Positions 96-57,745 of a stretch of DNA of 64,000 bases are shown piece after piece (position 1 is the first letter of the stretch; every line of letters starts with the position of its first letter). Made by a program: the position numbers and the translations under genes. The stretch is from an actinobacterium SCGC AAA278-O22 (GTDB taxonomy: Bacteria; Actinomycetota; Actinomycetes; Nanopelagicales; Nanopelagicaceae): positions 1 through 64,000 of the forward strand of contig AQUA01000001.1 of the NCBI GenBank assembly GCA_000372185.1, in the 5' to 3' direction. The notes under the pieces were generated by a model that worked only from the letters and a program-made list of their open reading frames with translations, was not told where the DNA came from and made no database searches.

Positions 96-528
96 TTCAG
101 TAATGATTGTTCTGATTGCACAAATCTGCGGAATCTCTGATGTGGCGGCCATTGTTTCGATCTTTGGAGTTAACGCTTCGATGATTCTCTTCGGATGGTT
201 GCAGGAGAAGTATGAAGAACCAGGAAATGGCGGGTGGCTGCCATTTATTTTTGGGTGCATTGCTGGAATTGTTCCGTGGCTTGCACTTGTCTTCTACATC
301 TTTGCTATTGGCGGTCCAGGAGATACTAAGGCACCAGCCTTTGTCTACGGAATCGTGATTTCACTCTTCGTTCTCTTTAATACATTTGCCGTTGTTCAGT
401 ACCTGCAATACAAGAAGGTTGGTAAGTGGTCTGAATATCTACGCGGTGAGAAGACTTACATCACGCTCTCGTTAGTAGCTAAATCTGCCCTTGCGTGGCA
501 GATCTTTGCCTCCACCTTGATTCAATAA
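1..528 (+). CDS. Heliorhodopsin, C-terminal part (5' end missing)
   Basis: The reading frame is open from base 1, so the track start at base 103 is an internal Met. The product covers transmembrane helices 3 to 7 of a heliorhodopsin, a retinal-binding membrane photoreceptor with inverted topology and no proton-pump activity. Family signatures seen are FRWVEYSISSSVMI in helix 3, whose Glu is the Schiff-base counterion, FGVNASMILFGWLQEKY, and LSLVAKSALAWQIF in helix 7, whose Lys binds retinal. The N-terminal half lies on the minus strand at 9644-9972. Joining the two through the shared 95 bases gives a 253-residue protein with Glu105 and Lys239, the family's usual length. The gene is therefore probably intact in the organism and split here by a chimeric join. 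Confidence 0.93.
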   Translation, partial: FLVISPQFFARYSAGLAVHRNYFRWVEYSISSSVMIVLIAQICGISDVAAIVSIFGVNASMILFGWLQEKYEEPGNGGWLPFIFGCIAGIVPWLALVFYIFAIGGPGDTKAPAFVYGIVISLFVLFNTFAVVQYLQYKKVGKWSEYLRGEKTYITLSLVAKSALAWQIFASTLIQ

Positions 529-555
529 CCTTTTGCAGGTTATCCTTATCGCATC

Positions 556-600
556 ATGAAGCTCCGCGGACTCCTCCTTATCCGCCGTAGCGAGGCCTAG
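556..600 (+). CDS. leuL: leuA leader peptide (14 aa, Leu-rich)
   Basis: A 15-codon ORF reads MKLRGLLLIRRSEA and stops 110 bases before leuA. Four of 14 residues are Leu, three of them consecutive (CTC CTC CTT), the design of an attenuation leader in which ribosome stalling on Leu codons reports leucyl-tRNA supply. Short Leu-run leaders before leuA are known in actinobacteria. The ORF is too short for the supplied track. There is no good Shine-Dalgarno; a TTGATT / TATCCT pair 18 bases apart (517-522, 541-546) would put transcription only a few bases before this ATG, so the leader may be translated from a nearly leaderless transcript. The promoter is inference; the ORF and its Leu run are direct observations. 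Confidence 0.8.
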   Translation: MKLRGLLLIRRSEA

Positions 601-603
601 GGT

Positions 604-2426
<1,823 letters not shown>

Positions 2427-2440
2427 CTATCGTACGCAGT

Positions 2441-3187
2441 ATGTCTGCGCCTCACACAAAGCTCTACCGCGATGAGGCAATCATTCTGCGCACACAAAAA
2501 CTAGGTGAAGCAGATCGCATCATTACTTTGCTCACCAAAGAACATGGTCGCGTCCGAGGTGTGGCAAAAGGAGTTCGTCGCACCATGTCGAAATTTGGGG
2601 CCCGCCTCGAACCTGGAAGCCATGTCGATATTCAGATGCACTCTGGAAAAACATTTGACACGATCACACAAGTCGAAGCGATAATGAATTATGGCGAAGC
2701 GCTCACTGATGATTATCAGCGGTGGACAATTGCTCACGCAATTCTTGAAACCGCCGAACGTTTTACCCAGCAAGAAGAAGAGCCCGCTCCACAAGAGTTC
2801 CAATTAGTTATCGGTGGCATGAAGGCACTTGCTGATAATCGATATGACTCATCCCTCATACTGGATGCATTTTTACTTCGCTCACTTTCCATCGGCGGAT
2901 ATGAACCCTCGATGACTTTGTGTTCACGTTGCGAGAAACCTGGTCCACATCGCTACTTTTCATTAGTGGGCGGTGGATCAGTCTGCATGGATTGTCGACC
3001 ATCGGCATCTGCAACCGCATCTGCTGAAGCGCTCGATTTAATGCAAGCGCTATTAGTTGGCGATTGGAATACCGCCGAGAAAAGTGAACCTCGCCATCGC
3101 CGAGAGGCTAGTAGTTTGGTAATTGCTTATCTACACTGGCACCTTGAACGCGGTTTAAGAAGTCTGCCGATGGTCGAGAGGGCTTAG
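2441..3187 (+). CDS. recO: DNA repair protein RecO
   Basis: RecO works with RecF/RecR to load RecA on single-strand gaps coated by SSB. The N-terminal OB fold is visible in YRDEAIILRTQKLGEADRII and the following residues to about 80; a helical domain follows. The C-terminal zinc site is CSRCEKPG...CMDC (about residues 165-190). The length of 248 fits the family. It starts 14 bases after leuA and ends 10 bases before uppS, so the three are probably read together. recO next to uppS is a standard actinobacterial order. Confidence 0.93.
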   Translation: MSAPHTKLYRDEAIILRTQKLGEADRIITLLTKEHGRVRGVAKGVRRTMSKFGARLEPGSHVDIQMHSGKTFDTITQVEAIMNYGEALTDDYQRWTIAHAILETAERFTQQEEEPAPQEFQLVIGGMKALADNRYDSSLILDAFLLRSLSIGGYEPSMTLCSRCEKPGPHRYFSLVGGGSVCMDCRPSASATASAEALDLMQALLVGDWNTAEKSEPRHRREASSLVIAYLHWHLERGLRSLPMVERA

Positions 3188-3197
3188 CTAGATATCT

Positions 3198-3908
3198 ATG
3201 GCAAAGAAGATTGAGATTCCCCAACACATCGCAATCGTGATGGATGGAAATGGACGATGGGCAAAAGAACGTGGTTTGCCGCGCACAGCTGGTCATCAAG
3301 CGGGGGAAAAGGTTCTCTTCGATATCGTCGAAGCGTGTATTGAATTTGGAGTGAAGGAAGTCAGTGCATACGCATTTTCAACTGAGAATTGGAAACGTAG
3401 CCCCGAAGAAGTGAAGTTTTTAATGGGCTACAGCCGCGAAATGCTGCGCACTCGCCGCGATCGCCTCAACGAAATGGGCGTCAAAATCAATTGGCTAGGA
3501 CGTCCTCAACGCCTCTGGAAATCAGTCATTGCTGAACTTGAGGAAGCAGAAGAACTGACGAAGAAGAATAAGAAACTTACCCTCAATATGTGCGTGAATT
3601 ATGGGGGCCGTGCAGAGATTGTTGATGCTGCAGCCGATCTTGCTCGTGATGTGAAGAGAGGCAAAGTGAAAGCCGATGCCATCACTGAAAAGACTTTAGA
3701 GAAATATCTATATTCTCCAAAGATGCGCGATGTCGATATGTTCTTACGTTCTTCAGGCGAACAGCGCACCAGCAACTTTTTGCCTTGGCAATCGTCTTAT
3801 GCGGAGTTTGTCTTCATGGATGTCTTATGGCCCGATATGACCCCAAAGCTATTGTGGAAAGCAATCGAGATTTATTCAGAGCGCGATCGTAGATTTGGAA
3901 GCGCTTGA
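3198..3908 (+). CDS. uppS: Isoprenyl diphosphate synthase (UppS family, cis-prenyltransferase)
   Basis: It elongates an allylic diphosphate with isopentenyl diphosphate to make the C50-C55 lipid carrier for cell wall synthesis. The signature [21 protein letters not shown] near the N-terminus contains the catalytic Asp and the diphosphate-binding Arg and His residues. [13 protein letters not shown] and the C-terminal [15 protein letters not shown] with the following WPD are also typical. The length of 236 residues is normal. There is no Shine-Dalgarno; the start is 11 bases after the recO stop, so translation may be coupled. The last codons and the stop lie inside the first unit of a 35-bp tandem repeat, so the present C-terminal end (RRFGSA) was shaped by that repeat. 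Confidence 0.95.
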
Positions 3909-3976
3909 CGCTTCCAAATTGATTAGATTGCGGAAGCGCTTGACGCTTCCAAATTGATTAGATTGCGGAAGCGCTT
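3897..3976. repeat. 35-bp tandem repeat, 2.3 units, each with a hairpin
   Basis: Two identical 35-base units (3897-3931, 3932-3966) and the first 10 bases of a third lie between the convergent uppS and ZIP genes. Each unit holds the inverted repeat GGAAGCG-cttga-CGCTTCC followed by an AT-rich stretch. It contains the uppS stop and reaches the ZIP stop, so it probably acts as a duplicated bidirectional terminator. There are no spacers, so it is not a CRISPR array. Confidence 0.9.
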
Positions 3977-4709
3977 AAAGAGAGGCTACGACGCCCCACA
4001 TAATGAAGACGCCGACAATTGTTGCAAAGAAAGTCCAGCGTGATGAATGGCGCGAATGTGCTTCGGGCAAGATATGCGACGTTGCAAGGTAGATAACAAA
4101 GCCTGAGAAAAGTGCGAGATAAAGCGCAAGTAACGAATCATTGAGTACTAGGTATGTACCAACGCTGGCCCCACCAATTCGCGCAATCGCATCGACACCT
4201 AGCAACATGTAACTAGTCTTCGTCCAATGTCCGCTCTTGACCATCAGCGAAACAGTATTAAGCCCGTCGCTAAATGCGTGAATAATTAGCGCAAGGAAGA
4301 CTGCGTAACCAAGTGCATGACTTACTTTGAAGGCAACACCCAATCCGACGCCATCGAGAAAGACATGGCCACCCATCGCAAGTGCTCCCAGTGAACCTGC
4401 GATGTTGTGGTGTTCGTGATCATGTCCGTAATCAGATTCAGCAGGTTCGTGACCACCGAATACGCCTTCAAGAATGTGAAGAGCTAAGAAACCAACAAGG
4501 ATGGCAAGAGAGACGGTTCGAATTCCACCTATAGATTCTGTGTTCATAGAAAATACTTCTGGAAGCAGATCAAAGCCAACAAGTCCCAAAAGTAACCCAG
4601 CAGATAATCCAAGAACGAGATGGAAGCGATCTGAAGATTTGAGAGCTACATAGCCACCGAAAGTGGTCGCAAGCACCGTGATTGCTGCGAAGACAATGGC
4701 CAGGTTCAT
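3975..4709 (-). CDS. ZIP-family divalent metal transporter
   Basis: A 244-residue membrane protein with about eight predicted helices, probably importing Zn2+ or a similar divalent ion. The family marks are a His-rich cytoplasmic loop (GHDHEHHN, about residue 100), then GGHVFLDGVGLG and IHAFSDGLN, which supply the HxxxD/G metal-binding motifs of helices 4 and 5. Substrate specificity cannot be read from the sequence. It is divergent from the ABM-domain gene across a 31-base gap and convergent with uppS. Its stop lies in the third, partial copy of the 35-bp repeat. Confidence 0.88.
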   Translation of the reverse strand: MNLAIVFAAITVLATTFGGYVALKSSDRFHLVLGLSAGLLLGLVGFDLLPEVFSMNTESIGGIRTVSLAILVGFLALHILEGVFGGHEPAESDYGHDHEHHNIAGSLGALAMGGHVFLDGVGLGVAFKVSHALGYAVFLALIIHAFSDGLNTVSLMVKSGHWTKTSYMLLGVDAIARIGGASVGTYLVLNDSLLALYLALFSGFVIYLATSHILPEAHSRHSSRWTFFATIVGVFIMWGVVASL

Positions 4710-4740
4710 AGCGCAAGGATATCGGCATTAGAGTTGTCTC

Positions 4741-5016
4741 ATGATTGCCATCGCCCGCTTTGAAGTGCAATTAGCTGAGACTGCGGCCTTCGAAAAAGAT
4801 ATTAAGGCCGCTTATGAGGCACTCGCTTCGTGTGCCGGATTTATTGATGGCGAATATGGCCAGAATCTTGATGACACCAATCTCTGGGTTCTTGTCACTC
4901 GTTGGGAAAATGTCGGTTCATACCGTCGCGCCCTCAGTGCGATGCGAACCAAATTGGAAGCAATTCCTTTACTGGCACGAGCAATTGATGAACCAGGGGC
5001 TTACGAGATAAACTAG
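4741..5016 (+). CDS. Small ABM-like (dimeric alpha/beta barrel) protein
   Basis: A 91-residue protein with the pattern of the antibiotic-biosynthesis-monooxygenase / ferredoxin-like dimeric barrel: an N-terminal strand IAIARFEV, a helix with Phe-Glu-Lys, a Trp-Val-Leu-Val strand and a Trp-Glu turn. Members are heme-degrading, quinol monooxygenases or simple binding proteins, and nothing here picks one. TAGAGT ends six bases before the ATG with no ribosome site between, which suggests a leaderless transcript. glyS follows after 60 bases. Confidence 0.65.
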   Translation: MIAIARFEVQLAETAAFEKDIKAAYEALASCAGFIDGEYGQNLDDTNLWVLVTRWENVGSYRRALSAMRTKLEAIPLLARAIDEPGAYEIN

Positions 5017-5027
5017 CGCCATACGTG

Positions 5028-5046
5028 AGCAACGACCGTTGCTTTT
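5028..5046 (+). terminator. Weak hairpin with short T-run before glyS
   Basis: AGCAACG-ac-CGTTGCT followed by TTTT sits between the ABM gene and glyS. The stem is short and only four T follow, so it could be a weak terminator or part of the glyS leader. Confidence 0.3.
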
Positions 5047-5076
5047 CGCCGACAGCCAGCCGGATGGAGAAAAAAG

Positions 5077-6456
5077 ATGGCCGTAGACCGTTTAGAAAAT
5101 ATTGTTTCGCTCTCAAAGCGTCGTGGATTTGTATTTCCCTCATCAGAAATTTATGGAGGCCTGCGCGCTTCATGGGATTACGGCCCACTCGGAGTAGAAC
5201 TCAAAAACAACGTCAAGCGCCAATGGTGGAAATCCATGGTGATGGGTCGTGAAGATATTGTCGGTATTGATTCATCAGTTATTTTGGCGCGCGAAGTGTG
5301 GGAAGCATCAGGACACGTAGCTACATTTAGCGATCCGCTTACCGAATGTACGGCATGCCACAAGCGCTATCGCGCCGATCATCTTGAAGAAGCATATGAA
5401 GCAAAGCATGGAAAGAAGCTTGCATCTCTTGCAGAAATGAATTGCCCTGCGTGCGGCAATAAGGGTCAATTCACGACTCCCAAACAATTCTCTGGTCTGC
5501 TTAAGACTTTCCTTGGACCCGTCGAAGATGAATCAGGGCTTGCTTACCTGCGCCCCGAAACCGCGCAAGGAATCTTTATCAACTTCGATCAGGTGATGAC
5601 AACATCACGTAAGAAGCCACCATTTGGTATTGGCCAGATCGGAAAATCCTTCCGCAACGAAATCACACCAGGAAACTTCATTTTCCGTACTCGCGAATTC
5701 GAGCAGATGGAGATGGAATTCTTTGTGGTTCCAGGCACCGATGAAGAGTGGCACCAATACTGGATCGATACTCGACTAGCTTGGTATAAAGATCTTGGAA
5801 TCAATCCTGATCGCCTTCGTATTTATGATCATCCAAAAGAGAAGCTGTCGCACTATTCAAAGCGCACAGCCGATATTGAATACAAGTTTGAATTTAACGG
5901 AACTGAATGGGGCGAACTCGAAGGTATTGCAAACCGCACAGACTTTGACCTCAAAGCTCATTCGGCAGCTTCCGGTAAGGATCTTTCATACTTTGATCAA
6001 GAGAAGAATGAGCGCTGGACTCCTTACGTCATTGAACCTGCAGCAGGTGTAGATCGTTGCACCCTCACATTTATGATGGATGCATATTCCGAAGATGAAG
6101 CGCCAAACGCTAAGGGCGAAATGGAGAAGCGCGCAGTGATGAAATTTGATCATCGCTTGGCCCCTGTGAAGGCTGCAGTTCTTCCACTTTCACGTAACGC
6201 TGATCTTTCGCCAAAAGCGCGTGATCTTGCGGCGCAGTTACGCAAAAACTGGAATATCGATTTCGATGATTCAGGTGCGATCGGTCGTCGTTACCGCCGT
6301 CAAGATGAAATCGGTACTCCATATTGCATCACTATCGACTTCGAATCACTTGAAGATCAAGCAGTCACCATTCGTGACCGCGACACCATGGCGCAAGAAC
6401 GTATCGGAATCGATCAAGTAGAAGCATGGCTAGCACCACGTCTACTCGGCTGCTAG
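5077..6456 (+). CDS. glyS: Glycine-tRNA ligase (alpha2 type)
   Basis: It charges tRNA-Gly. The single-chain eukaryote-like form is the usual one in actinobacteria. Class II motifs are present: [16 protein letters not shown] early, motif 2 [21 protein letters not shown] (about residues 190-210) and a C-terminal anticodon-binding domain from about residue 360. A zinc-binding insertion carries two Cys pairs, CTACHKRY and CPACGNKG. The length of 459 is normal. GGAG lies nine bases before the ATG. Its end overlaps the dusB start by 31 bases, implying coupling. No T-box elements were recognised upstream. Confidence 0.97.
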
Positions 6457-7592
6457 CTCCACTGCAGCTTCCTCTTAAAGATGGAACCCATCTCGTAGAT
6501 CCACCCGTAGTTCTTGCACCGATGGCAGGAATTACCAATGCATCTTTTCGTATGCTCTGCCGCGAACAAGGAGCAGGTCTCTTTGTATCTGAGATGGTGA
6601 CGGCGCGCGCGCTGTTAGAACGAATTCCTGAAACGATGCGCATGATTGAACCTGGCGCAGGTGAGTGGCCACGATCTGTGCAGTTGTATAGCGTCGACCC
6701 GCACCACATGGGTGAAGCGGTCAAGATGATTGGTCGTGAAAATTTAGCCGATCACATCGATATGAACTTTGGTTGTCCAGTGCCGAAGGTAACGCGCAAA
6801 GGTGGGGGAGCAGCACTTCCCTTTAAACGAAATCTCTTCCGCGAAATAGTTAAAGCAGCCGTTGATAATGCCAAGCCTTATGGAATTCCTGTCACCGTAA
6901 AGATGCGTATTGGTATCGATACTGATCACCACACATATTTGGAAGCAGCCAAGTCAGCTGCAGATTTAGGAGTTGCTTGGGTCGCTCTCCATGCGCGCAC
7001 AGCGCAACAGATGTATGAAGGAAAAGCTGATTGGTCTGCAATTAAAAATTTAGTAGAACACCTCAAACCAACAGGCGTTCCAGTGTTAGGCAATGGCGAT
7101 ATTTGGTCTGGTGCAGACGGCGCCGAAATGGTGCGCCAAACAGGATGTGCTGGTGTGGTTGTTGGGCGCGGATGCCTTGGTCGCCCATGGCTCTTTGCTG
7201 ATTTAGTTGATGCATTTAACGGTGGAAATAATCGAGTGCTCCCAACTCTGCACGAAGTTCGCGAAGTGATGTTCCGTCATGGTGAATTAATCGTTGATTA
7301 CTTCGAATCTGAAGATCGCGGTTGCCGCGACCTACGCAAACATATGGCTTGGTATCTCAAAGGTTTCCGAGTCCACTCTGAATTACGTCGCCAATTCGGA
7401 ATGGTGGGATCTCTCAAGGAACTTCGTTCGCTATTAGATCAGCTCGATGATCAGCCTTATCCAATTGAAGTAGGCGAAAAACCTCGCGGTCGCACTAGTA
7501 GTGGCCGTCCACCAACCCTGCCAGATGGATGGCTCAATGATCCTGACGAGATGATTCACCTTGATGTGGAAGATATGTTCTCGGGTGGTTAA
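6426..7592 (+). CDS. dusB: tRNA-dihydrouridine synthase
   Basis: A flavoprotein that reduces specific uridines in tRNA D-loops. The TIM barrel begins with [20 protein letters not shown], contains [17 protein letters not shown] with the catalytic Cys, and ends with [15 protein letters not shown], a phosphate/FMN-binding loop. The C-terminal helical domain runs from about residue 275 and a Pro/Gly-rich tail follows. It overlaps glyS by 31 bases and shares TAATG with the next gene, so glyS-dusB-DUF218-dgt look like one operon. Confidence 0.95.
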
Positions 7593-8251
7593 TGTTTAAA
7601 TTAATTCGCCGAGTGATTTCTTTATTTGTTGCCATCATTATCATTATTCCAACATATGCGCTGTTTGTGACGTGGCACTCTGCCAAGAACCCAGGTTTTC
7701 GCACTTCTGCTGAAGTAATTGTGGTTCCGGGCGCTGCACAACTTAATGGCGCACCTGGTGATGTCTTACTCGCCCGTTTGGTTGAAGCAAAGCGAATTAA
7801 AGATAAAGGTTATGCACCTCTGATTATTACCGTTGGAGCTGGTGCCCCAGGAGATCGAACAACAGAAGCTGCTGCTGGCAAGTATTGGCTGACACATCAC
7901 GGTATTGCCAAAAGCAAAGTAGTTTCAATTCCCCAAGGTCGAGATACCTTGAGTCAGACTCAGGCATATATTAAAGAGATGCGCGCACGAAAGATTTACA
8001 ATGTCATCATCGCAACCGATGCATATCACTGTCAGCGCGCAATGACGATGGCAAATGATTTAGGTGCAGTCGCCACATGTTCACCTGTGCAGACTGGGCC
8101 AAATACTCTTCAAAATTCCCATCTGCGTTACTTAATTCGTGAAGCAGGTGCCTACTTGGCCTATATCTCACTCGGTCGCCGCGGGATTCATATCTCGGAC
8201 CATCTGACTAATAGTGGACTTGTAAGGTATGTACATGACTTCATCCAGTAA
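7592..8251 (+). CDS. DUF218 / YdcF-ElyC-SanA-like membrane protein
   Basis: 219 residues with one N-terminal transmembrane helix (VISLFVAIIIIIPTYALFV) followed by an extracytoplasmic DUF218 domain. Its conserved starts are IVVPGAAQLNGAPGDVLLARL and TTEAAAGKYWL, with IIATDAYHCQRAM later. ElyC and SanA of this fold affect cell envelope integrity, but the biochemical role is uncertain. The ATG overlaps the dusB stop (TAATG), and dgt begins before its end. Confidence 0.82.
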   Translation: MFKLIRRVISLFVAIIIIIPTYALFVTWHSAKNPGFRTSAEVIVVPGAAQLNGAPGDVLLARLVEAKRIKDKGYAPLIITVGAGAPGDRTTEAAAGKYWLTHHGIAKSKVVSIPQGRDTLSQTQAYIKEMRARKIYNVIIATDAYHCQRAMTMANDLGAVATCSPVQTGPNTLQNSHLRYLIREAGAYLAYISLGRRGIHISDHLTNSGLVRYVHDFIQ

Positions 8252-9464
8252 TTACAGCGCTTTTGATCAAGAGCGCTTTCTCGATGAACCAGCAAAGCGC
8301 CCAGGCCGCACCGAATTTATGCGCGATCGAGCACGCGTTATTCACTCAGCAGCGCTTCGCCGTTTAGCTGCGAAGACGCAAGTGGCAGTTCCTTGGGAGA
8401 ACGATTTCCAACGCACTCGCTTATCGCACTCACTTGAGTGTGCACAGATTGGTCGCGAACTTGGAGAATCACTTGGCGCAGATCCAGATCTGCTTGAAAC
8501 CGCATGTCTTTCACACGATATGGGTCATCCACCATTTGGTCACAATGGAGAGGAAGCTCTCGCTGAAGTAGCCGCGCCATGTGGTGGCTTTGAAGGTAAT
8601 GCACAATCATTTCGTTTACTTACTCGCATTGAAGCAAAGACAGTTGATGCACAAGGAAAGAGCTTAGGTCTTAATCTCACGCGTGCTTCTCTTGATGCAG
8701 CTACCAAGTATCCATGGGCTCGTGCAGAAAACCCTCGCAAGTTTGGTGTCTATGACGATGACACCGAAATTTTTCATTGGGTCCGCGAAGGTGCACCAGT
8801 TGGTCGAAAATGTCTTGAAGCGCAGATCATGGATTGGTCTGATGATTGTGCGTACTCAGTGCACGATTTAGAAGATGCCATCTTCGCTGGGCAGATTACG
8901 GTTAAGAACTTTGATAACGATTTCGACATTCTTTACAAAGAAATGGTCGAGGGTTATAAAAGTGATGCAACCAAGGAAGAAGCTGTTAGCGCTCTTACTC
9001 GCCTGCAATCTTTATCGTGCTGGCCGATTAATTTTGATCGTAGCCATCGCTCGCTCGCTCGCTTAAAAGATACGACATCACAATTAATTGGTCGATTTGT
9101 TCTGGCTGCCGAACTTGAAACTCGCAAAATCTACGGCGATGGTCCACTAACTCGCTATAACGCCAACCTAGAGATTCCACGCGATCAAAAGATCGAAGTA
9201 GATTTCCTCAAAGCAGTTGCAGGTCACTACTTAATTAATGCTGCTGCTTCACAAGAACGTTATGCAAAGCAGCAAGTGCTGATCCATGAATTGGTCGAGA
9301 TGCTCTTTGAAGCTGCTCCCAAGGAACTTGACCCGATCTTCGAAGATGATTGGAAGATGGCCACCAATGATTCAGAGCGCCTTCGCGTCGTTGTTGACCA
9401 GATTGCCAGCCTCACCGACCCCGGCGCATATGCGCTCCATGCGCACCTTTCAAAGCGTCGCTAA
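8235..9464 (+). CDS. dgt: dGTPase-like HD-domain nucleotide triphosphohydrolase
   Basis: It hydrolyses dNTPs to deoxynucleosides and triphosphate. The HD metal site is split between TRLSHSLECAQIGRELG and CLSHDMGHPPFGHNGEEAL, and a further Asp lies in QIMDWSDDCAYSVHDLED. The length is about 409. Two start codons six bases apart are possible; the second is chosen because TAAGG lies seven bases before it but only one base before the first. It overlaps the DUF218 gene by 17 bases. dgt before dnaG is the standard actinobacterial order. Confidence 0.93.
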   Translation: MTSSSNYSAFDQERFLDEPAKRPGRTEFMRDRARVIHSAALRRLAAKTQVAVPWENDFQRTRLSHSLECAQIGRELGESLGADPDLLETACLSHDMGHPPFGHNGEEALAEVAAPCGGFEGNAQSFRLLTRIEAKTVDAQGKSLGLNLTRASLDAATKYPWARAENPRKFGVYDDDTEIFHWVREGAPVGRKCLEAQIMDWSDDCAYSVHDLEDAIFAGQITVKNFDNDFDILYKEMVEGYKSDATKEEAVSALTRLQSLSCWPINFDRSHRSLARLKDTTSQLIGRFVLAAELETRKIYGDGPLTRYNANLEIPRDQKIEVDFLKAVAGHYLINAAASQERYAKQQVLIHELVEMLFEAAPKELDPIFEDDWKMATNDSERLRVVVDQIASLTDPGAYALHAHLSKRR

Positions 9465-9473
9465 GGTAGGAAC

Positions 9474-9728
9474 ATGAGCGGTCGCATCAAGGCAGATGAC
9501 ATTGTTTATGTGCGCGAACATGCACATATCGATGAAGTAGTTACTGCAGCTGGTGTTGCTCTCAAAAGCGCTGGTGGGGGACAGAAGAAGGGCCTATGTC
9601 CTTTCCACGATGAGAAATCACCGTCCTTCCACGTCACACCATCGAAGAGATGGAATATTCAACCCAGCGGAAATAGTTGCGGTGAACCGCAAGACCTGCG
9701 CTGTAGCGTGCAAAGAATTGTGGGCTAA
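9474..9728 (+). pseudogene. dnaG: DNA primase, 5' fragment fused out of frame to inverted heliorhodopsin DNA
   Basis: The first 57-58 codons are a normal DnaG start: an N-terminal helix and the first half of the CHC2 zinc finger (GLCPFHDEKSPSFHVTPSK). The expected continuation with the last two zinc Cys residues, the TOPRIM domain and the helicase-binding domain is missing. From 9644 the DNA is the reverse complement of heliorhodopsin, so the remaining 26 codons of the ORF are nonsense. The join carries short GAAG microhomology. DnaG is essential and no transposase or IS end is at the break, so the intact gene probably exists elsewhere and this is a chimeric join. Confidence 0.9.
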
Positions 9729-9972
9729 TGACAAGGAAATGGAAGAAGGCAGAAAGTCCCAAGAAGATTGCAACAGCTAATCCGACGGGAGTGTTGAGAA
9801 GAGTGATTGGTTCTGCAAATGTGCTTCCTGGAGGACCTGCCATATATCGGGCCACAATGGGAAGTGAGAAATCATTTGCAAGAATCAGAACAACCACCAT
9901 CTGTGCCAAGTGGAATAAGCCAGCAATGAGGTTGTAGCGACGAATACTGGATGCGTTTATCTCTTTAGCCAT
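9634..9972 (-). CDS. Heliorhodopsin, N-terminal part (truncated at a chimeric join)
   Basis: The first 109-110 residues are transmembrane helices 1 to 3 of the heliorhodopsin whose remainder opens the window. Family features include NLIAGLFHLAQM, LANDFSLPI, YMAGPPGSTF and TPVGLAVAIFLGLSAFFHF. Only the part down to 9644 is rhodopsin sequence; the last three codons to 9634 come from antisense dnaG. It starts 36 bases after glnA on the same strand with no intervening terminator. Heliorhodopsin next to glutamine synthetase is a known actinobacterial arrangement, and a physical and regulatory interaction between the two proteins has been reported (recollection). The start ATGGCTAAAG has no strong Shine-Dalgarno. 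Confidence 0.92.
   Translation of the reverse strand: MAKEINASSIRRYNLIAGLFHLAQMVVVLILANDFSLPIVARYMAGPPGSTFAEPITLLNTPVGLAVAIFLGLSAFFHFLVISPQFFARYSAGLAVHRNYFRWVEYSISSMV
9644..9738 (-). repeat. 95-bp exact inverted repeat, right copy (pairs with 1-95)
   Basis: This is the partner of the repeat at bases 1-95. Its left end is the exact boundary where dnaG sequence stops. Its right end is where the window's first base pairs; identity beyond that cannot be tested. Confidence 0.95.
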
Positions 9973-10008
9973 GGATAAAGGCTACAGAGCCACCTGTGAA
10001 ATATCCCG

Positions 10009-11328
10009 TTAGAGGACAGGCAAGTACTTATCTAATTCGTAGGCACTGACCTGACGACGATAGTCCTGCCACTCAGCGCGCTTATTACGTAGGAAGTAAT
10101 CAAATACATGCTCACCCAATGTCTCGCGGACTAGCTCGCTCTTTTCCATGACTTGGATTGCCTCTTCTAGATTTGATGGAAGCAATTGGTTATCCGTTGA
10201 TGGTTCAAGAACATATTTCTTCTCAATTCCCTTAAGTCCAGCTGCGACCATTACTGCGTAGGCAAGGTATGGATTGCAGGCAGAATCCGGAGAACGAAAT
10301 TCGATGCGCGTTGAATTCTCTTTATTGGGCTTATACATAGGAATACGCACAAGTGCGCCGCGATCATTGTGGCCCCAATTAATAATTGATGGAGCTTCTC
10401 CCCCACCTTGGAGGCGCTTATACGAATTAACCCACTGATTTGTAACTGCGGTGATTTCTGCAGCGTGCTTCAAGATTCCAGCAATAAATTGGCGACCCAC
10501 AGTTGAGAGATTGAGTTCGGCCTTATCGTCATAGAACGCATTCTTTTCGCCTTCAAAGAGTGAGACGTGAGTATGCATTCCAGAACCTGGGTGGTCGGTA
10601 AATGGCTTGGGCATAAAGGATGCATAGAAGCCTTGATTGAGAGCAACTTCCTTAATGACATGGCGGAAAGTCATGATGTTGTCTGCGGTGCTCAGCGCAT
10701 CTGCATAACGAAGATCAATCTCTTGCTGCCCAGGTGCACCTTCATGATGGCTAAATTCAACAGAGACGCCCATCGCTTCCAGCGAAGTAATCGCTTGGCG
10801 ACGGAAGTCATGGCCAACAACTGCTGGCGTGTGATCGAAGTAGCCACCTTGATCAACGGGAACTGGCGCGACACCTTTTTCAGGTTGTGATTTAAAGAGG
10901 AAGAATTCAATTTCCGGATGGGTGTAACAGGTGTAACCCATCTTGGCTGCCTTATCCAATGTACGGCGCAGAACATTGCGGGGATCGGCAGGAGATGCCT
11001 CACCGCTTGGCAGAGTAATGTCGCAAAACATGCGTGCAGCACCTTGTGCTTCAGCGCGCCACGGCAAGATAGTAAATGTTGCAGGATCTGGCTTAGCCAA
11101 CATATCGGATTCAAATTCGCGCGCAAATCCTTGAATCGCAGAACCATCGAAACCGATTCCTTCTTCAAAGGCGCTATCTAACTCAGCAGGTGCAATTGCT
11201 ACAGATTTCAGAGTTCCGAGAATGTCGGTAAACCATAAGCGGATAAACCGGATATCGCGTTCTTCAATCGTGCGAAGGACGAACTCTTGTTGCTTGCTGA
11301 TGTTCTCTGCTGGGGACATGCGCCCCAT
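10009..11328 (-). CDS. glnA: Glutamine synthetase, GlnA2-type
   Basis: It makes glutamine from glutamate, ammonia and ATP. The 439-residue length, the opening EFVLRTIEERDIRFIRLWFTD and the run SVEFSHHEGAPGQQEIDLRYAD match the actinobacterial GlnA2 form rather than the adenylylated GSI-beta GlnA1, and no NLYxLP adenylylation site is present. Active-site segments GSAIQGFAR, FMPKPFTDHPGSGMHTH and RIEFRSPDSACNPYLAYA are intact. The track start has an in-frame Met three codons in (MSPAEN), which could be the true start. It lies between nadE and heliorhodopsin in one orientation, suggesting nadE-glnA-heliorhodopsin co-expression. NadE also consumes glutamine. Confidence 0.95.
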   Translation of the reverse strand: MGRMSPAENISKQQEFVLRTIEERDIRFIRLWFTDILGTLKSVAIAPAELDSAFEEGIGFDGSAIQGFAREFESDMLAKPDPATFTILPWRAEAQGAARMFCDITLPSGEASPADPRNVLRRTLDKAAKMGYTCYTHPEIEFFLFKSQPEKGVAPVPVDQGGYFDHTPAVVGHDFRRQAITSLEAMGVSVEFSHHEGAPGQQEIDLRYADALSTADNIMTFRHVIKEVALNQGFYASFMPKPFTDHPGSGMHTHVSLFEGEKNAFYDDKAELNLSTVGRQFIAGILKHAAEITAVTNQWVNSYKRLQGGGEAPSIINWGHNDRGALVRIPMYKPNKENSTRIEFRSPDSACNPYLAYAVMVAAGLKGIEKKYVLEPSTDNQLLPSNLEEAIQVMEKSELVRETLGEHVFDYFLRNKRAEWQDYRRQVSAYELDKYLPVL

Positions 11329-11365
11329 CGTGCCAAAGTGAAGTTACGGCAGTGTTACAGAACTA

Positions 11366-11422
11366 GATTTCTCGCCACTTGGAAGTCAATATCTTCAGAC
11401 TTCTCGCCAGCTCGAAGTCATT
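11366..11422. repeat. 25-bp imperfect direct repeat at the nadE stop
   Basis: GATTTCTCGCCACTTGGAAGTCAAT (11366-11390) and GACTTCTCGCCAGCTCGAAGTCATT (11398-11422) are offset by 32 bases and differ at about five positions. The second copy encodes the NadE C-terminus (SSWREV); the first is a degenerate copy just past the stop, in the nadE-glnA gap. Confidence 0.7.
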
Positions 11423-13077
11423 GGCAGGCGGCGATCCTTACCGAATGCACGCTTAGAAACCTTCGTGCCAGGCGGGTATTGGCGCCGCTTATATTCTGCC
11501 TTGTCGACCATCGCAATAACGCGCATGACCAACTCTTTATCAAAGCCCGCTGCAATAAGTGCATCGCGCCCTAAATCGTCATCGACATAAGCCTTCAAAA
11601 CTTTATCGAGGATTTCATATTCAGGAAGTGAATCTGAATCTTTCTGATCAGGTCGTAATTCAGCAGATGGCTCTTTAGTGATCGAACGTTCAGGAATTGG
11701 CGGGACTTCACCAGCTTCTGCAGCTGCCCGATTGCGCCAACGTGCCAGCGCCCAGACATCGGTCTTATAAATATCTTTAATCGGCGCATATCCACCGACT
11801 GCATCTCCATATAAGGTCGAATATCCGCAGGCCAATTCAGATTTATTTCCGGTAGCAAGAACAAGATGGCCATGCTGGTTGGAAAGTCCCATCAAGGTAG
11901 TTCCACGAACACGCGCCTGCAGATTTTCCTCAGCCAGCCCCGTGAGCTCTACCTGAGTGCGGAAGGCATCGACCATCTTCTGAATTTCTACAATACGAAA
12001 ACCGAGGCCGGTGTTCTTCGCCATCAACTCAGCATCCTCAATGGAGTGGCCAGATGAATATTTACTTGGCATAGCAACGCCATGAACTCGATCCGGGCCA
12101 AGGGCATCAATGGCAAGGGCTGCTACAAGTGCAGAATCAATTCCGCCAGAAAGCCCAACAAGTACTGACTTAAATCCATTTTTGCCCACGTAATCGCGCA
12201 AGCCAACAACGATGGCGTTCCACATCTCTTCTTCATCGCCCAGACGGTGTGCAATGCCGGGAACGAGTGGCTTGGCGATGTCAACAGAATCTTCGGAAAT
12301 AATCACATCGGGCTTAGAAGTTCCTGTTGCAACATCAACATCAACAACCATGACGCCATCTTCAAATTGAGGAGCACGCGCAATGACGGCACCGTCGCTA
12401 TTGACCACGATGCTGTCGCCATCAAAGACCAAATCATCTTGGCCGCCTGTCATATTGACATATGCAAGTGGGGCTTTGGCTTCGCGAGCGCGTTTGGTAA
12501 CAAGAGCAAGGCGCACATCATCTTTAGCGCGTTCATATGGAGATCCATTGGGAACAATGACAAGCCCTGGATTGCGCGCTGCCAATTGAGAAGTAATTCC
12601 TCCATCAATCCAGAGGTCTTCGCAGATGGCGATACCCACATCAACTCCATGGATGCGAACTACCAATGTGGAATCGCCTGCCACAAAATTGCGGAACTCA
12701 TCGAAGACTCCGTAATTAGGTAGGTGGCATTTGGCATAGCGCGCTTTGACTTCGCCGCCTGCAATAACTGCGACCATATTCTGTGGCTTGACCACACCAT
12801 CATCAGAAACGACCTGATCGAGGTAGCCAACAATCGAAACAATCTTGCTATCTAATTCAGAGGCGAGCGCAGTTAAAGCGGATTTACTGGCCACCTGAAA
12901 AGAGGGGCGTAGCGCTAAATCTTCTACGGGATACCCGGTCAGAACCATCTCGGGGAAAATTGCGATATGCGCACCTGCGCCCACAGCCTGATCTACCGAT
13001 TGCTTAATCAGCGCTGCATTACCCGCTAGGTCGCCGACCGTAGGGTTGACCTGCGCAAGCGCCAATCGCAACTTCAT
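11395..13077 (-). CDS. nadE: Glutamine-dependent NAD+ synthetase
   Basis: It amidates deamido-NAD using glutamine. The N-terminal nitrilase-type glutaminase domain (about 1-260) has the Glu in AIFPEMVLTGYP, a Lys near residue 115 (AKCHLPNYGVFDE) and the Cys in GIAICEDLWIDGG. The C-terminal ATP-pyrophosphatase domain has the P-loop VGLSGGIDSALVAAL and GYAPIKDIYKTDVWAL. At 560 residues it is the two-domain form shorter than the mycobacterial type. It is upstream of glnA in the same direction, which links glutamine production and use. Confidence 0.96.
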   Translation of the reverse strand: MKLRLALAQVNPTVGDLAGNAALIKQSVDQAVGAGAHIAIFPEMVLTGYPVEDLALRPSFQVASKSALTALASELDSKIVSIVGYLDQVVSDDGVVKPQNMVAVIAGGEVKARYAKCHLPNYGVFDEFRNFVAGDSTLVVRIHGVDVGIAICEDLWIDGGITSQLAARNPGLVIVPNGSPYERAKDDVRLALVTKRAREAKAPLAYVNMTGGQDDLVFDGDSIVVNSDGAVIARAPQFEDGVMVVDVDVATGTSKPDVIISEDSVDIAKPLVPGIAHRLGDEEEMWNAIVVGLRDYVGKNGFKSVLVGLSGGIDSALVAALAIDALGPDRVHGVAMPSKYSSGHSIEDAELMAKNTGLGFRIVEIQKMVDAFRTQVELTGLAEENLQARVRGTTLMGLSNQHGHLVLATGNKSELACGYSTLYGDAVGGYAPIKDIYKTDVWALARWRNRAAAEAGEVPPIPERSITKEPSAELRPDQKDSDSLPEYEILDKVLKAYVDDDLGRDALIAAGFDKELVMRVIAMVDKAEYKRRQYPPGTKVSKRAFGKDRRLPMTSSWREV

Positions 13078-15478: not shown

Positions 15479-15781
15479 ATGGCTGCAGCTAAGAAATCTG
15501 CTCCAAAGAAGCGCCGTAAGAAGGCTGCTGCACCAGCAGCACCTAAGAAGCGTCGTAAGAAGGCAGCTGCAACAGCAGCTCCAAAGAAGCGCCGCAAGAA
15601 GGCAGCTGCTAAGAAGGCAGCTCCAAAGCGCCGTAAGAAGGCAGCTGCTAAGAAGGCAGCTCCAAAGCGTCGTAAGAAGGCAGCTGCTAAGAAGGCAGCT
15701 CCAAAGCGCCGTCGTAAGAAGGCAGCAGCTCCAGCAGCTGCTCCAAAGCGCCGCCGTCGTAAGAAGGCAGCAGCTAAGTAA
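15479..15781 (+). CDS. Histone H1-like Lys/Arg/Ala-repeat DNA-binding protein
   Basis: A 100-residue protein made almost only of Lys, Arg, Ala and Pro. Six to seven units of the type APKKRRKKAAA(K) are seen, with Arg count rising towards the C-terminus (KRRRRKK). It has no HU domain, so it resembles a free-standing version of the basic tail of mycobacterial HupB or histone H1. It should bind nucleic acid non-specifically and may compact the nucleoid. The track start 14 codons earlier lacks a ribosome site; TAGGAG lies eight bases before the ATG used here. A strong terminator follows. The DNA itself is a degenerate tandem repeat, so unit number may vary between strains. Confidence 0.85.
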   Translation: MAAAKKSAPKKRRKKAAAPAAPKKRRKKAAATAAPKKRRKKAAAKKAAPKRRKKAAAKKAAPKRRKKAAAKKAAPKRRRKKAAAPAAAPKRRRRKKAAAK

Positions 15782-43940: not shown

Positions 43941-44855
43941 ATGACTCAGCAAATTCGCGTAGGAACTGCACCAGATTCGTGGGGCGTTTGGTTTCCAAGC
44001 GAGCCGACACAAGTTCCATGGGATCGCTTCCTTGATGAAGTTGAGGCTTCCGGATATCACTGGATTGAATTAGGACCATTTGGATATCTTCCTACAGATC
44101 CAAAAAGGCTTGAAGATGAACTGGGTAAGAGAAATCTCAAACTTACGGCAGGAACTGTCTTTACAGGATTTCACAAACTGGATGAGAGTCAATGGCAACG
44201 AGCTTGGGATCAAGCACTAGCTGTTGCAAATCTTGTTTCTAAACTTGATGTTAAGCATCTAGTAGTGATCCCAGATTTGTGGCGAGATCCACAAACTGGT
44301 GACGCACAGGAATCTCGAACATTATCTAATGAACAATGGAAGAGACTTGCCGCTGGGCATGACAAACTCGGGAAAGCACTACTGGAAGAATTTGATATTC
44401 GCCAGCAATTCCACTCTCACGCAGATAGTCATATTGGAACTTATCAAGAAGTAGAGAGATTTTTAGAAGAAACGAATAAGGATTACACCAATCTATGTCT
44501 CGATACTGGTCATTTTGCCTATTACCTTGGTGATAACGTCAAGTTGATGAACGCCTACCCTGAGCGGATTGGATACCTACATCTTAAGCAAGTGCATCCA
44601 GATATTTTGGCTAATGCACTTAAGAATGACCTTCCATTCGTTGAGGCTGTAGCTCAAGGTGTTATGACTGAACCCGGCTTCGAAGGTGTTCCAAAATTTG
44701 CACCTATTATCGAAAAAGCACTAGAAATCAATCCTGAGATTTTCGCAATTATTGAGCAGGATATGTATGGCTGCTCGATGGATATGCCATTCCCAATTGC
44801 ACAACGTACCCGTGAACATATTTTGGCAACTACCCGAGCTGCCCGAGTCAAGTAA
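43941..44855 (+). CDS. Sugar phosphate isomerase/epimerase (IolE-like TIM barrel)
   Basis: 304 residues of the xylose-isomerase-like (AP-endonuclease 2) fold. The opening RVGTAPDSWGVWFP and WIELGPFGYLPTDP resemble IolE but differ from the clear IolE later in the cluster. Metal-ligand candidates are QQFHSHADSHIGT, CLDTGHFAYYLGD, GYLHLKQVHPD and IEQDMYG. It may be a dehydratase or epimerase for another inosose or keto-inositol. AAAGGAG lies before the start. Confidence 0.8.
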   Translation: MTQQIRVGTAPDSWGVWFPSEPTQVPWDRFLDEVEASGYHWIELGPFGYLPTDPKRLEDELGKRNLKLTAGTVFTGFHKLDESQWQRAWDQALAVANLVSKLDVKHLVVIPDLWRDPQTGDAQESRTLSNEQWKRLAAGHDKLGKALLEEFDIRQQFHSHADSHIGTYQEVERFLEETNKDYTNLCLDTGHFAYYLGDNVKLMNAYPERIGYLHLKQVHPDILANALKNDLPFVEAVAQGVMTEPGFEGVPKFAPIIEKALEINPEIFAIIEQDMYGCSMDMPFPIAQRTREHILATTRAARVK

Positions 44856-44888
44856 TTCTGCTAAAAAGACTATCGACTGGAGAAAAAG

Positions 44889-45758
44889 ATGAAAATCGCA
44901 TTAGACCCAACACCTTTCCACCACACTCATAAGCTTTTGGAATTTCCTGCTGTAGCTGCAGAATTAGGGTTCAAATACCTTCAGATGACTCCACATCCTG
45001 ATTTCATTCCATTTTTTAATCATCCGAAAGCGGATGACAGCCTGGTCAAAAAAATGAAGCAAGCATGTAAGGACTCAGGGGTGGAAATTGCATCCGTGCT
45101 TCCCGTATTGCGATGGTCTGGTCCTGATGAAGATGCGAGAGAAGCGGCTATCCGTTACTGGAAGCGCGCAATTCAAATTACCGTAGATCTAGGTGTGAAA
45201 ACTATGAATACCGAATTCTCGGGTCGGCCCGAAAGAGCGGAAGAATCAGAACGTGCCTTCTATAGATCAATGGAAGAGTTGTTGCCCATCATTGAACGCG
45301 AAGGTCTAGATGTATTAATTGACCCACATCCAGATGATTTTGTGGAAGATGGGTTACAAGCAATTCGTACTATCCGCGGAGTAAACTCTAAAAATATTGG
45401 ACTAGTTTATGTCGCGTCTCACACCTTCCACATGAATCAACCTCCATTGACGATCATGCGTGAGGCGGGTGAAATGCTCCGATTGGTGCATGTATCTGAC
45501 ACAATGGACCATAAACGTTCACATGGGCTTCGCTACATTACGAACCCTCCCGGAAACTCTGTGAGAGTACATCAGCATCTTAAAATTGGGGATGGCGATG
45601 TGAATTGGCCAGAATTCTTTGGCGGCCTCAAAGAGATAGGGTTCCTAGATAATCCAAATAGCGTGATGTGTTCATCCATCTTTGCTGAAAATGAAAAAAA
45701 TAAAGAAACTGCAAAATACCAACTCGCAAAAATTCAAGAAATGATTGAGGTCAATTAG
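44889..45758 (+). CDS. iolH: IolH-like sugar phosphate isomerase/epimerase
   Basis: 289 residues of the same TIM-barrel superfamily. KIALDPTPFHHTHKLLEFPAVAAELGF, TPHPDFIPFFNHPKAD and IASVLPVLRWSGPDEDAREAAIRYWKRAIQ match the actinobacterial IolH group. Metal-binding residues are in NTEFSGRPE, LIDPHPDDFVEDG and LVHVSDTMDHKRSHG. IolH's exact reaction is not firmly established. It is two bases from the next oxidoreductase. Confidence 0.82.
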   Translation: MKIALDPTPFHHTHKLLEFPAVAAELGFKYLQMTPHPDFIPFFNHPKADDSLVKKMKQACKDSGVEIASVLPVLRWSGPDEDAREAAIRYWKRAIQITVDLGVKTMNTEFSGRPERAEESERAFYRSMEELLPIIEREGLDVLIDPHPDDFVEDGLQAIRTIRGVNSKNIGLVYVASHTFHMNQPPLTIMREAGEMLRLVHVSDTMDHKRSHGLRYITNPPGNSVRVHQHLKIGDGDVNWPEFFGGLKEIGFLDNPNSVMCSSIFAENEKNKETAKYQLAKIQEMIEVN

Positions 45759-45760
45759 TT

Positions 45761-46936
45761 ATGTCAAAGATTGGAGTAGCAGTAATTGGGGCTGGAATGG
45801 TTGGGAGGGCCCATGCTGCTGGATTTCGTGCCGCAAGCACAGTATACGGTCCCGGTTTACCAGAAATTGATTTGGTCACAATCGCAGACCTCAATGCTGA
45901 GTTTGCGCAAGATTCTGCGAGACGATTTGGTTATCGCAACTCTGAAACTGATTGGAGGACAATACTTTCCGATTCCAGCATTCAAGTGGTGAGTGTTGCT
46001 GTTGCCAACTCGCTACATCGGGAAATATCAGAAGCACTTCTGAAAGCAGGAAAACATGTTCTTTGTGAAAAACCATTAGCTCCATCAACTGCGGATGCCC
46101 GAGCGATGGTTGAGACCGCTAAAAAGGCAAAAGATTTGCATGCAGGGACTGGATTCACTTTCCGAAGATCCCCTGCGATAGGCGCAATCAAAAACGAATT
46201 AGAAAATGGCAACCTTGGGAAACCGTACTTTTTTAACGGTCATTATTGGTGTGATTATGCGGCTGATTCGTCTCGGCCAATGTCATGGAGGTATAAAGGC
46301 GGTCCTGGTTCTGGCGCGCTAGCTGACATTGGCTCACACGTTGTAGATCTAGCGGAATTTATGTTTGGGGAGATTGAATCAGTCTCTGGTGCTGTATTAA
46401 CCACTTTTACTCAAAGGCGGGCTCTACCATCTGGTACTGCTATGGGTCATGCAGCGACTTCTCTCTCAGATGTTTACGAAGATGTTGAAAACGAAGATCT
46501 TGTTACCTTTATTGCAAAATTTAAAAGTGGTGCAACCGGAACTTTTAGTTCCTCACGAGTGGCCCACGGTCTAGCAAATGGACTTGGATTTGAAATTCAC
46601 ACGGAAAAAGGTGCTGCAACTTTTGATCTAGGTCGCATGGGAGAATTCGGATACTTCGATAGTACGACACCACATCAAACTTCGGGATATCGTCAAGCAT
46701 TTATTGGGCCGGATCACCCATATATAGCTGGAGGTATGGCGATGGATTTCCCAACCGTTAATTACGGTCAAAATGACCTGTTTGTCTGGCAAGCACGAGC
46801 TTTTCTAGAGCAAGTTGCTGGATTAAGCAGACTACCTAAAGTAGCTACCTTTGAAGAAGGTCTTCGTAATTTAATAATCTTGGATTCAATTGTTGAATCG
46901 GCGCTCCACAATGGAATTGAAGTTAAAATCAAGTAG
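45761..46936 (+). CDS. Gfo/Idh/MocA oxidoreductase (inositol dehydrogenase-like)
   Basis: 391 residues. Rossmann start GVAVIGAGMVGRAHAAGFRAA, catalytic EKP loop in HVLCEKPLAPSTADA, and C-domain DIGSHVVDLAEFMFG. The ~390-residue length and GHYWCDYAADSS...MSWRYKGG block are shared with the homologue at 59563 and typical of scyllo-inositol or other inositol dehydrogenases. It ends the iolA operon and overlaps lacI tail to tail by eight bases. Confidence 0.85.
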   Translation: MSKIGVAVIGAGMVGRAHAAGFRAASTVYGPGLPEIDLVTIADLNAEFAQDSARRFGYRNSETDWRTILSDSSIQVVSVAVANSLHREISEALLKAGKHVLCEKPLAPSTADARAMVETAKKAKDLHAGTGFTFRRSPAIGAIKNELENGNLGKPYFFNGHYWCDYAADSSRPMSWRYKGGPGSGALADIGSHVVDLAEFMFGEIESVSGAVLTTFTQRRALPSGTAMGHAATSLSDVYEDVENEDLVTFIAKFKSGATGTFSSSRVAHGLANGLGFEIHTEKGAATFDLGRMGEFGYFDSTTPHQTSGYRQAFIGPDHPYIAGGMAMDFPTVNYGQNDLFVWQARAFLEQVAGLSRLPKVATFEEGLRNLIILDSIVESALHNGIEVKIK

Positions 46937-47939
46937 ATCTACGAATAATCAACTCCAGTGGTAAAAATATTTCACGTGGTTCCGACATAAGTGGATCTTT
47001 AATAAGTTTGTTCACAAGCAACGCCGCTTCTTTCCCTGAACCGTGAAGTTGTTGTTTTACAGTGGTAAGCCCCATGTAATCAGCGATATCGATATCATCA
47101 AAGCCCACTACACCCAAATCTCCTGGTACCTTGATTCCCAATTCCTCGGCGGCTCTCAGGACTCCAAGTGCGTTAATGTCTACTCCACAAAATAAAGCAT
47201 CTGGCCGGTTTGAACTCTTGAGTAACTCAGTTGCCTTAATTCTCGAGTCTTCAATACTGTAATCGGGAGTAATAATTAATTCAGGATTTACCTTTCTCCC
47301 ATTTTCAAGAAGTGTATTGATATATCCCTGTTCTCTTTCTTTAGAAGGATTTGAAGAATAACTAGGAAGAGGATTAAAGCCGACATATCCAATATTTTTA
47401 TAGCCTCTGTCAATCAGATGCTGGACTCCTAGTCGCGCACCCTCAGAATTATCTACTTTGAAAGATGTGAAACGGGTGTCTGAAGTCTCAATAAGTGTAG
47501 TTGGAAATTTAGTGGAAGAAATGCGAGTCAAATCTTGTCCATTTACTGGAAGCGACATGATAATCAAACCGTCATATCTACCAGAAGATGCTAAAGAATC
47601 GAGAAATTTATTGTTCTGCGGATTTAAAATCTTTTGAGCATCGATCTGAAAAATAATTAACTCAGATTGTAACTCGTCAAGAGCAGAGGAAATTCCCTGC
47701 AGCCTTTGCGTAAAACCAGGATAGGTATTAAGTGGAGCAACTACTGCAATTCGATCATTATGATGTCTCGCTCGTGCCGCCGCTTCAAGATCTGGTGTGT
47801 ATGACAATTTGTGAACAGCTTCCATGACTCGCGAACGTGTCGCTTCAGAAACTCGGTGAGGCTTATTTAATGTTCGACTCACAGTGGCAATTGACACTCC
47901 TGCCAAGGCAGCTACTTCATAAATCGAGGATTTGGGCAC
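46929..47939 (-). CDS. LacI-family transcriptional regulator
   Basis: 336 residues: helix-turn-helix SSIYEVAALAGVSIATVSRTLNKPHRVSEAT at the N-terminus and a periplasmic-binding-like effector domain (RIAVVAPLN, GVDINALGVLRAAEELGIKVPGDLGVVGFDD). Its location between two inositol operons makes it the likely local regulator, with an inositol-type ligand. The divergent region holds TTACA repeats that recur at other island promoters. Confidence 0.93.
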   Translation of the reverse strand: MPKSSIYEVAALAGVSIATVSRTLNKPHRVSEATRSRVMEAVHKLSYTPDLEAAARARHHNDRIAVVAPLNTYPGFTQRLQGISSALDELQSELIIFQIDAQKILNPQNNKFLDSLASSGRYDGLIIMSLPVNGQDLTRISSTKFPTTLIETSDTRFTSFKVDNSEGARLGVQHLIDRGYKNIGYVGFNPLPSYSSNPSKEREQGYINTLLENGRKVNPELIITPDYSIEDSRIKATELLKSSNRPDALFCGVDINALGVLRAAEELGIKVPGDLGVVGFDDIDIADYMGLTTVKQQLHGSGKEAALLVNKLIKDPLMSEPREIFLPLELIIRRST

Positions 47940-48015
47940 ACACCTATCATCGGCCTAATCTCAAGGTGAGTCAAAAATGGGCTTTTTGGAGCGCGAATCG
48001 GGCCGAACTATTGAA

Positions 48016-48087
48016 TGTAAGCCATTGAAATTCATGAATTTTTATACGGTTGGAAAGCGACATCGTGCTGTTTACATTTGTTTACAA
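48016..48087 (+). promoter_or_regulatory. Direct-repeat operator in the lacI/isomerase divergent region
   Basis: TGTTTACA occurs at 48069 and again at 48079, a 10-bp period, giving TTACATTTGTTTACAA (48072-48087). This 16-mer recurs exactly, in reverse, upstream of the ABC binding protein at 55421. A single TGTAAGC half-site is at 48016. The gap of 225 bp between the two genes contains no ORF. Confidence 0.65.
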
Positions 48088-48164
48088 AAGACTTTCATAC
48101 TTAACACTTTCATTTTTTTTAACTAGAGTTAGAGTCCTACATTGTACAGAAAGTTGGAATTGTA

Positions 48165-49163
48165 ATGCATATCGGAGTTTATACAGCAGTCTTGCATGAT
48201 CGTGATATTGATTCTGCCCTAGATGTAATCAAAGGATTGGGACTTAATGGAGCAGAAATCAATTCTGGCGGCTTTCTTCCTCCGGTGCATTTACCAATTG
48301 ATGACATTATGAACTCTGATGTCAAACGAGATGAATACTTGGACAAGTTTTCTTCTCGTGGAATTAAGTTGACTGCCCTTAATTGTAACGGAAATCCTTT
48401 GAGTCCAAATAAAGCAGTTGGACAACGTCAATCACAAGATGTAATAGATGCAGTCAAGATTGCAAATCGTCTCGGAGTTGATCGCGTTATTACGATGTCA
48501 GGTTTACCAGCTGCAGAATCAACAGGTTCTCGAGCTGCTTGGTATGTAAATCCTTGGAGTTCTGAACACATGGATGCCCTTGACTACCAATGGAATGAAG
48601 TAGCGATTCCATTTTGGCAGAAGGTTGATAAAGTTGCCGAAGAGAACGGTGTAAAAGTTGGTCTTGAAATGCATCCTCAGAATGTTGTATTCAACCCTTC
48701 TACGATGCTTCGCTTGGTAGAAAAGGGAAATCTTAGAAATATTGGCGCCGAAATGGATCCTTCTCATTTATTTTGGCAGCAAATTGATCCAATACATGCA
48801 CTAGAGGTACTCGGGGAATTGGTTTATTGCGCAGCGGCGAAAGATGTTCGAATTAATCCTGGAGTAAAGATTCATGGCGTATTAGACGATCGATTTACAA
48901 GAATCCCGCGCGAGCAAAATCCACTTCCACTTTCTCACGATGGTCAATTCGTCGTAAATCAATGGCCAAAAGACTCTGCTTGGGATTTCGTGGCTCTTGG
49001 AGAGGGTCACGATCAGGCATTCTGGACTAAGTTTCTGCAAACTCTTGCAAAGACTAGCCCTAAGACTGACATCGCGATTGAACATGAAGATGCATCATTC
49101 AGTCGGGAAGAAGGTTTGAGAATCGCGGCAAATGTTCTGAAGACTGCATATGCTGCTCTCTAA
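48165..49163 (+). CDS. Sugar phosphate isomerase/epimerase (TIM barrel)
   Basis: 332 residues. HIGVYTAVLHDRDIDSALDVIKGLGLNGAEINSGG opens the barrel; VGLEMHPQNVVFNPSTMLRLVE, GAEMDPSHLFWQQ, CAAAKDVRIN and DIAIEHEDASF carry the metal Glu, Asp and His residues. It belongs to a group found with inositol/sugar Gfo-Idh enzymes and may be an isomerase or epimerase of a keto-cyclitol. First gene of a plus-strand run with the transaldolase-like gene and two oxidoreductases. Confidence 0.83.
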   Translation: MHIGVYTAVLHDRDIDSALDVIKGLGLNGAEINSGGFLPPVHLPIDDIMNSDVKRDEYLDKFSSRGIKLTALNCNGNPLSPNKAVGQRQSQDVIDAVKIANRLGVDRVITMSGLPAAESTGSRAAWYVNPWSSEHMDALDYQWNEVAIPFWQKVDKVAEENGVKVGLEMHPQNVVFNPSTMLRLVEKGNLRNIGAEMDPSHLFWQQIDPIHALEVLGELVYCAAAKDVRINPGVKIHGVLDDRFTRIPREQNPLPLSHDGQFVVNQWPKDSAWDFVALGEGHDQAFWTKFLQTLAKTSPKTDIAIEHEDASFSREEGLRIAANVLKTAYAAL

Positions 49164-49233
49164 GAGGGTATTAGCCTTTACTCAATTCAATTTAATTTTC
49201 ACCGGCAGCTTAAACATTCAATAAGGAGATTAA

Positions 49234-50310: not shown

Positions 50311-50320
50311 GCGTTTTGAG

Positions 50321-51343: not shown

Positions 51344-51346
51344 GAC

Positions 51347-51352: not shown

Positions 51353-51357
51353 TAACC

Positions 51358-52338: not shown

Positions 52339-52362
52339 TCTGCATAGTCCGAATATTGAATC

Positions 52363-57744: not shown

Positions 57745-57745
57745 T

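Follow-up and report, generated by a model that had tools for sequence, protein, structure and literature searches.

Gene fragments and the inverted overlap at the locus

The window, a 64,000-base stretch of DNA, comprises positions 1–64000 of contig C1 (179,113 bases) from the single-cell genome SCGC AAA278-O22, and base 1 of the window is therefore the physical 5′ end of the contig. The assembly consists of 1,138,490 bases in 43 contigs, with an estimated completeness of 75%. The cell belongs to tribe acI-A1 and originates from Lake Damariscotta; its genome was described as 1.14 Mb in 43 contigs and 74.4% complete (PMC5962901, Table 1).

The forward strand at positions 9474–9648 encodes a 5′ fragment of dnaG, which is 58 codons long and includes part of a CHC2 zinc finger. 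The chimeric frame that begins with this fragment contains 84 codons and ends at position 9728. The reverse strand at positions 9644–9972 encodes the N-terminal part of a heliorhodopsin (residues 1 to about 110, matching positions 1–103 of the PF18761 profile), and the C-terminal part of the protein (residues 79–253, PF18761 positions 73–242) is encoded by the forward strand at positions 1–528. Positions 1–95 of the window are exactly identical to the reverse complement of positions 9644–9738, and the identity extends past neither end. An exact identity of this length is impossible by chance. The 64-kb window contains no other long exact inverted repeat.

The two arms of the repeat are separated by 9,548 bases. 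The copy at positions 1–95 contains heliorhodopsin codons that run on into positions 96–528, and the second copy, on the reverse strand at positions 9644–9738, is reached through a false join. The segment between the copies (96–9643) contains the rest of the heliorhodopsin gene, leuA, recO, uppS, zip, glyS, dusB, ydcF, dgt, and the start of dnaG. The chimeric junction is formed by the motif GAAGA (9644–9648), five bases that are common to dnaG and the antisense strand of heliorhodopsin; the match of dnaG to its continuation on contig C5 ends at position 9648, and the heliorhodopsin match begins at position 9644. We recognised no IS element or recombinase beside the join, where the genes are dgt, dnaG, heliorhodopsin, and glnA.

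An earlier note on this DNA, made from the letters alone, had described the exact 95-base inverted repeat, the end of dnaG after about 58 codons at the left end of the repeat, and the lack of an IS element, and had suggested that base 1 is probably the end of a contig. All of these descriptions agree with the results above. The note had also reported GAAG as microhomology at the join. Shared bases are indeed present, but their number is five and not four.

Native continuations in the assembly and gene order in relatives

The joining of the reverse complement of positions 9644–9972 to positions 96–528 produces a heliorhodopsin of 253 residues, which covers all 242 positions of the PF18761 profile, as the earlier note had predicted for the removal of the join. 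Both copies of the 95 bases are native to the heliorhodopsin gene, since positions 1–95 lead into positions 96–528, and the native start of the gene precedes the reverse complement of positions 9644–9738. The sole match to the DNAG_N profile in the genome is located at the end of contig C5. Positions 9607–9648 on the forward strand, 42 bases in total, are 100% identical to positions 116211–116252 of C5 on the reverse strand. Beyond this overlap, C5 reads NYYHCFGCGVGG..., which continues the CHC2 zinc finger in the normal way within an open frame of 566 codons, and the dnaG of the window joined to that of C5 encodes 611 residues. The rest of dnaG, which the earlier note had expected on another contig, thus opens C5 after the 42 identical bases. 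Because heliorhodopsin is native on both sides and dnaG continues on C5, every native adjacency is present in the assembly, together with one chimeric adjacency of dnaG to the antisense strand of heliorhodopsin. In the organism itself, neither gene is broken.

The sequence across the join is clean, and inversions mediated by microhomology are known in cells; both points would be compatible with a true 9.6-kb chromosomal inversion disrupting dnaG and heliorhodopsin in the cell or its population. However, a real inversion requires two new junctions, and only one is present here; on the other side of the segment is the first base of the contig. Furthermore, the native continuation of dnaG and both native adjacencies of heliorhodopsin are kept in the same assembly, and the inversion would affect the DnaG primase, which is essential. 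We consider a true inversion extremely improbable. It is also exceedingly doubtful that a true inversion, or a partial duplication, existed at the locus in the cell next to an unbroken copy, in which case the join would predate the amplification.

The gene order of the window was compared to those of six closed genomes of the genus (G014, G039, G051, G064, G067, and G097), of which G051 corresponds to CP015603 (IMCC25003) and G064 to NZ_CP016774 (Ca. Planktophila versatilis). Among the closed genomes tested, the closest is that of IMCC25003, also a member of acI-A1, whose 16S sequence is more than 99.5% similar to that of AAA278-O22 (PMC5301498). Heliorhodopsin and dnaG are intact in all six genomes and belong to one colinear block with the order panB/nadE/glnA-heliorhodopsin-leuA-recO-uppS-zip-glyS-dusB-ydcF-dgt-dnaG. 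In the alignment to G051, positions 539–9648 of the window match one strand and positions 9649–32154 the other, both with 82–83% identity. The alignment to G039 likewise switches strand at 9648/9649, and the segment 96–9643 is misoriented relative to positions 9739–64000. The comparison with closed acI genomes that the earlier note had proposed thus gives the native block in these six genomes. The note had also named a relative with the same junction as a sign of a real inversion. A search with a 261-base query in 135 genomes, including that of the window itself, found no junction-spanning match in the 134 congeners among the matches listed; these matches either stop at or before position 9648, with a few 3-base overruns, or begin at about position 9643 or later. 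A 50-mer across the junction had no match in a collection of genome contigs, from which the record of the window itself was possibly excluded.

The inverted repeat flanks a segment of the window, as it would in a phase-variable switch based on programmed inversion. However, the second copy of the repeat is a duplicated end of one native site, and the corresponding stretches of the closed relatives contain no inverted exact repeat of at least 40 bases there. No gene in the vicinity was recognised as encoding a recombinase, and housekeeping genes flank the segment. The native sequence, on C5 as well as in the relatives, already refutes the switch, whose probability is negligible.

Other features of the region were observed in the course of these comparisons. 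Heliorhodopsin lies directly behind glnA (9634–11328, reverse strand), in the same arrangement as in IMCC26103, whose heliorhodopsin reportedly binds the adjoining glutamine synthetase and regulates it (PMC9529153). In the closed genome G015, heliorhodopsin is located away from these genes. At and behind the end of uppS, positions 3897–3966 contain two perfect 35-base tandem copies with a GGAAGCG...CGCTTCC hairpin. The end of uppS and a zip-like gene are partly duplicated in tandem in one closed relative (L060 from G097, positions 8653–11600). Repeats of 39 bases at positions 15481–15754 encode a small K/R-rich histone-like protein with KKRRKKAAA... units. Over the stretches that were compared, positions 44855–64000 are mostly non-colinear with G051 and G039 and constitute a variable region with genes for xylose-isomerase-like barrels, Gfo/Idh/MocA oxidoreductases, a LacI regulator, ABC-transporter parts, and a TPP enzyme. 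Eight acI-like metagenome-assembled records (L151, L153, L162, L170, L191, L196, L208, and L209) have titles naming Bifidobacterium breve or Streptomyces griseus and are apparently misnamed.

Recurrent overlap lengths and the origin of the join

The assembly was compared with itself using BLAST over 450 of its 1,138 kb, mostly the outer 18–20 kb of the large contigs. Inverted self-matches of exactly 95 bases are present at the 5′ end of C1 (1–95 with 9644–9738), the 5′ end of C3 (1–95 with 12916–13010), the 5′ end of C4 (partner at 810–904), and the 3′ end of C4 (117617–117711 with 114846–114940). The 5′ end of C2 (1–94 with about 12441–12540) has an inverted match of 94 exact bases. At least five contig ends in the assembly carry the same inverted fault. 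Native continuations were found for three of them, namely C5 for C1, C11 for the 5′ end of C4, and C10 for the 3′ end of C4, and each shares exactly 42 bases with its chimeric contig. According to the coordinates, the three joins have microhomologies of five, six, and seven bases, respectively. The alignments to G051 and G039 also switch strand at the joins of C3, the 3′ end of C4, and C2.

The identical overlap lengths at unrelated loci can only be assembler constants and not biology. Their repetition is the decisive new evidence that the feature is an artefact. Inverted exact repeats of at least 40 bases were absent from 80 control loci of other genomes (1.04 Mb) and from the stretches of the closed genomes. 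The recurrence also speaks against a true inversion, since four other ends have the same overlap lengths, and one of them breaks dnaA, which is essential. The join in question, at the 5′ end of C4 (L011, contig C4, 1–904; L018, contig C11, 1–42), lies in the replication-origin region. When it is undone, dnaA forms a single open frame of 472 codons with a dnaN-like ORF just downstream; both genes were named by sequence recognition and not by profile search.

The earlier note had connected the length of 95 bases to a k-mer size; the overlaps of 95 bases at further contig ends of the assembly are what a k-mer length would produce. Exact overlaps of this one length at several unrelated contig ends resemble those left at the forks of a de Bruijn graph. 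In contrast to such overlaps, the native side has a second constant of 42 bases, which goes beyond one k value and is not accounted for by a simple graph with k = 95, and the 94 bases at the 5′ end of C2 also deviate from this length. A K of 96 in Allpaths-LG would leave neighbouring pieces sharing 95 bases, and SPAdes may run k up to 95. The assembler that produced the contigs may be one of these. A related set of freshwater single-cell genomes was assembled with Velvet and Allpaths-LG (PMC4053759).

The fixed lengths of 95 and 42 are set by software and would also fit a purely computational misassembly that occurred without any chimeric molecule. However, the assembler needs at least one read that crosses from dnaG to heliorhodopsin, and GAAGA, the only sequence common to both places, is far too short for a false overlap. 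Moreover, the inverted orientation and short microhomology recur at several ends. A misassembly of this kind is very unlikely.

The DNA of single cells is amplified by the phi29 polymerase. Among 475 characterised chimeras formed by multiple displacement amplification (MDA), 85% were inverted, and 83% of the inversions joined sequences less than 10 kb apart; 93.5% of these close inversions had complementarity at the junction, ranging from 2 to 21 nt (PMC1855051, Lasken and Stockwell 2007). The join in C1 corresponds to these products in its inversion, spacing of about 9.5 kb, five complementary junction bases, and probable origin from an amplified single cell, which supports the attribution to MDA in the earlier note. 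Unlike those chimeras, the join persisted into a consensus contig and ended it, and two sister joins, those of C3 and C2, span 12–13 kb, slightly over the usual 10 kb. We conclude that the feature is almost certainly an artefact, an inverted chimera made in vitro by MDA and then fixed by assembly.

Based on the positions of the overlaps, the sequence of events leading to the artefact can be proposed. During the MDA of one acI cell, a strand growing rightward through dnaG may have been displaced at GAAGA (window position 9648). The displaced strand would have re-annealed by five bases to a single strand about 9.5 kb upstream, within heliorhodopsin, and its extension would then have run the other way, toward glnA. 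The assembler, upon reaching the fork formed by the 95-base word at positions 9644–9738, probably took the chimeric edge from dnaG to glnA, and the native edge would have been left ending at base 1. With the fork at this word and the native edge ended at base 1, both edges would keep the 95 bases. The native continuation of dnaG ended up in the separate contig C5. The native order is the reverse complement of C1 from position 9644 onward, followed by C1 positions 96–9648 and the reverse complement of C5.

Consequences for genome users and further self-matches

With this analysis, the claim that dnaG and heliorhodopsin are broken proves false. The finding has low value as biology and moderate value as a warning to those who work with single-cell genomes. 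In this public single-cell assembly, the same fault has inverted five or more contig ends and, at one of them, gives dnaA the appearance of a broken gene. Studies of gene loss, synteny, or replication origins that draw on this assembly, or on comparable ones from single cells, could reach wrong conclusions. A fixed-length exact inverted self-match at a contig end may serve as a warning cue.

The assembly contains further self-matches of other lengths. The start of C8 (1–36) has a shorter inverted match of 36 exact bases at about 10252–10287, which is possibly another such chimera. Positions 117894–119754 and 127554–129414 of C3 form a 1,861-base inverted near-identical duplication, one copy of which ends at a single-N gap (C3 119755). 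Contig C8 contains a 3,146-base direct near-identical duplication (72391–75536 and 79067–82212), one copy of which ends at a single-N gap at C8 75537. Both duplications are probably scaffolding artefacts. Positions 133713–133802 of C2 and 17494–17583 of C12 share 90 identical bases in dovetailed contig ends, and the two contigs can probably be joined.
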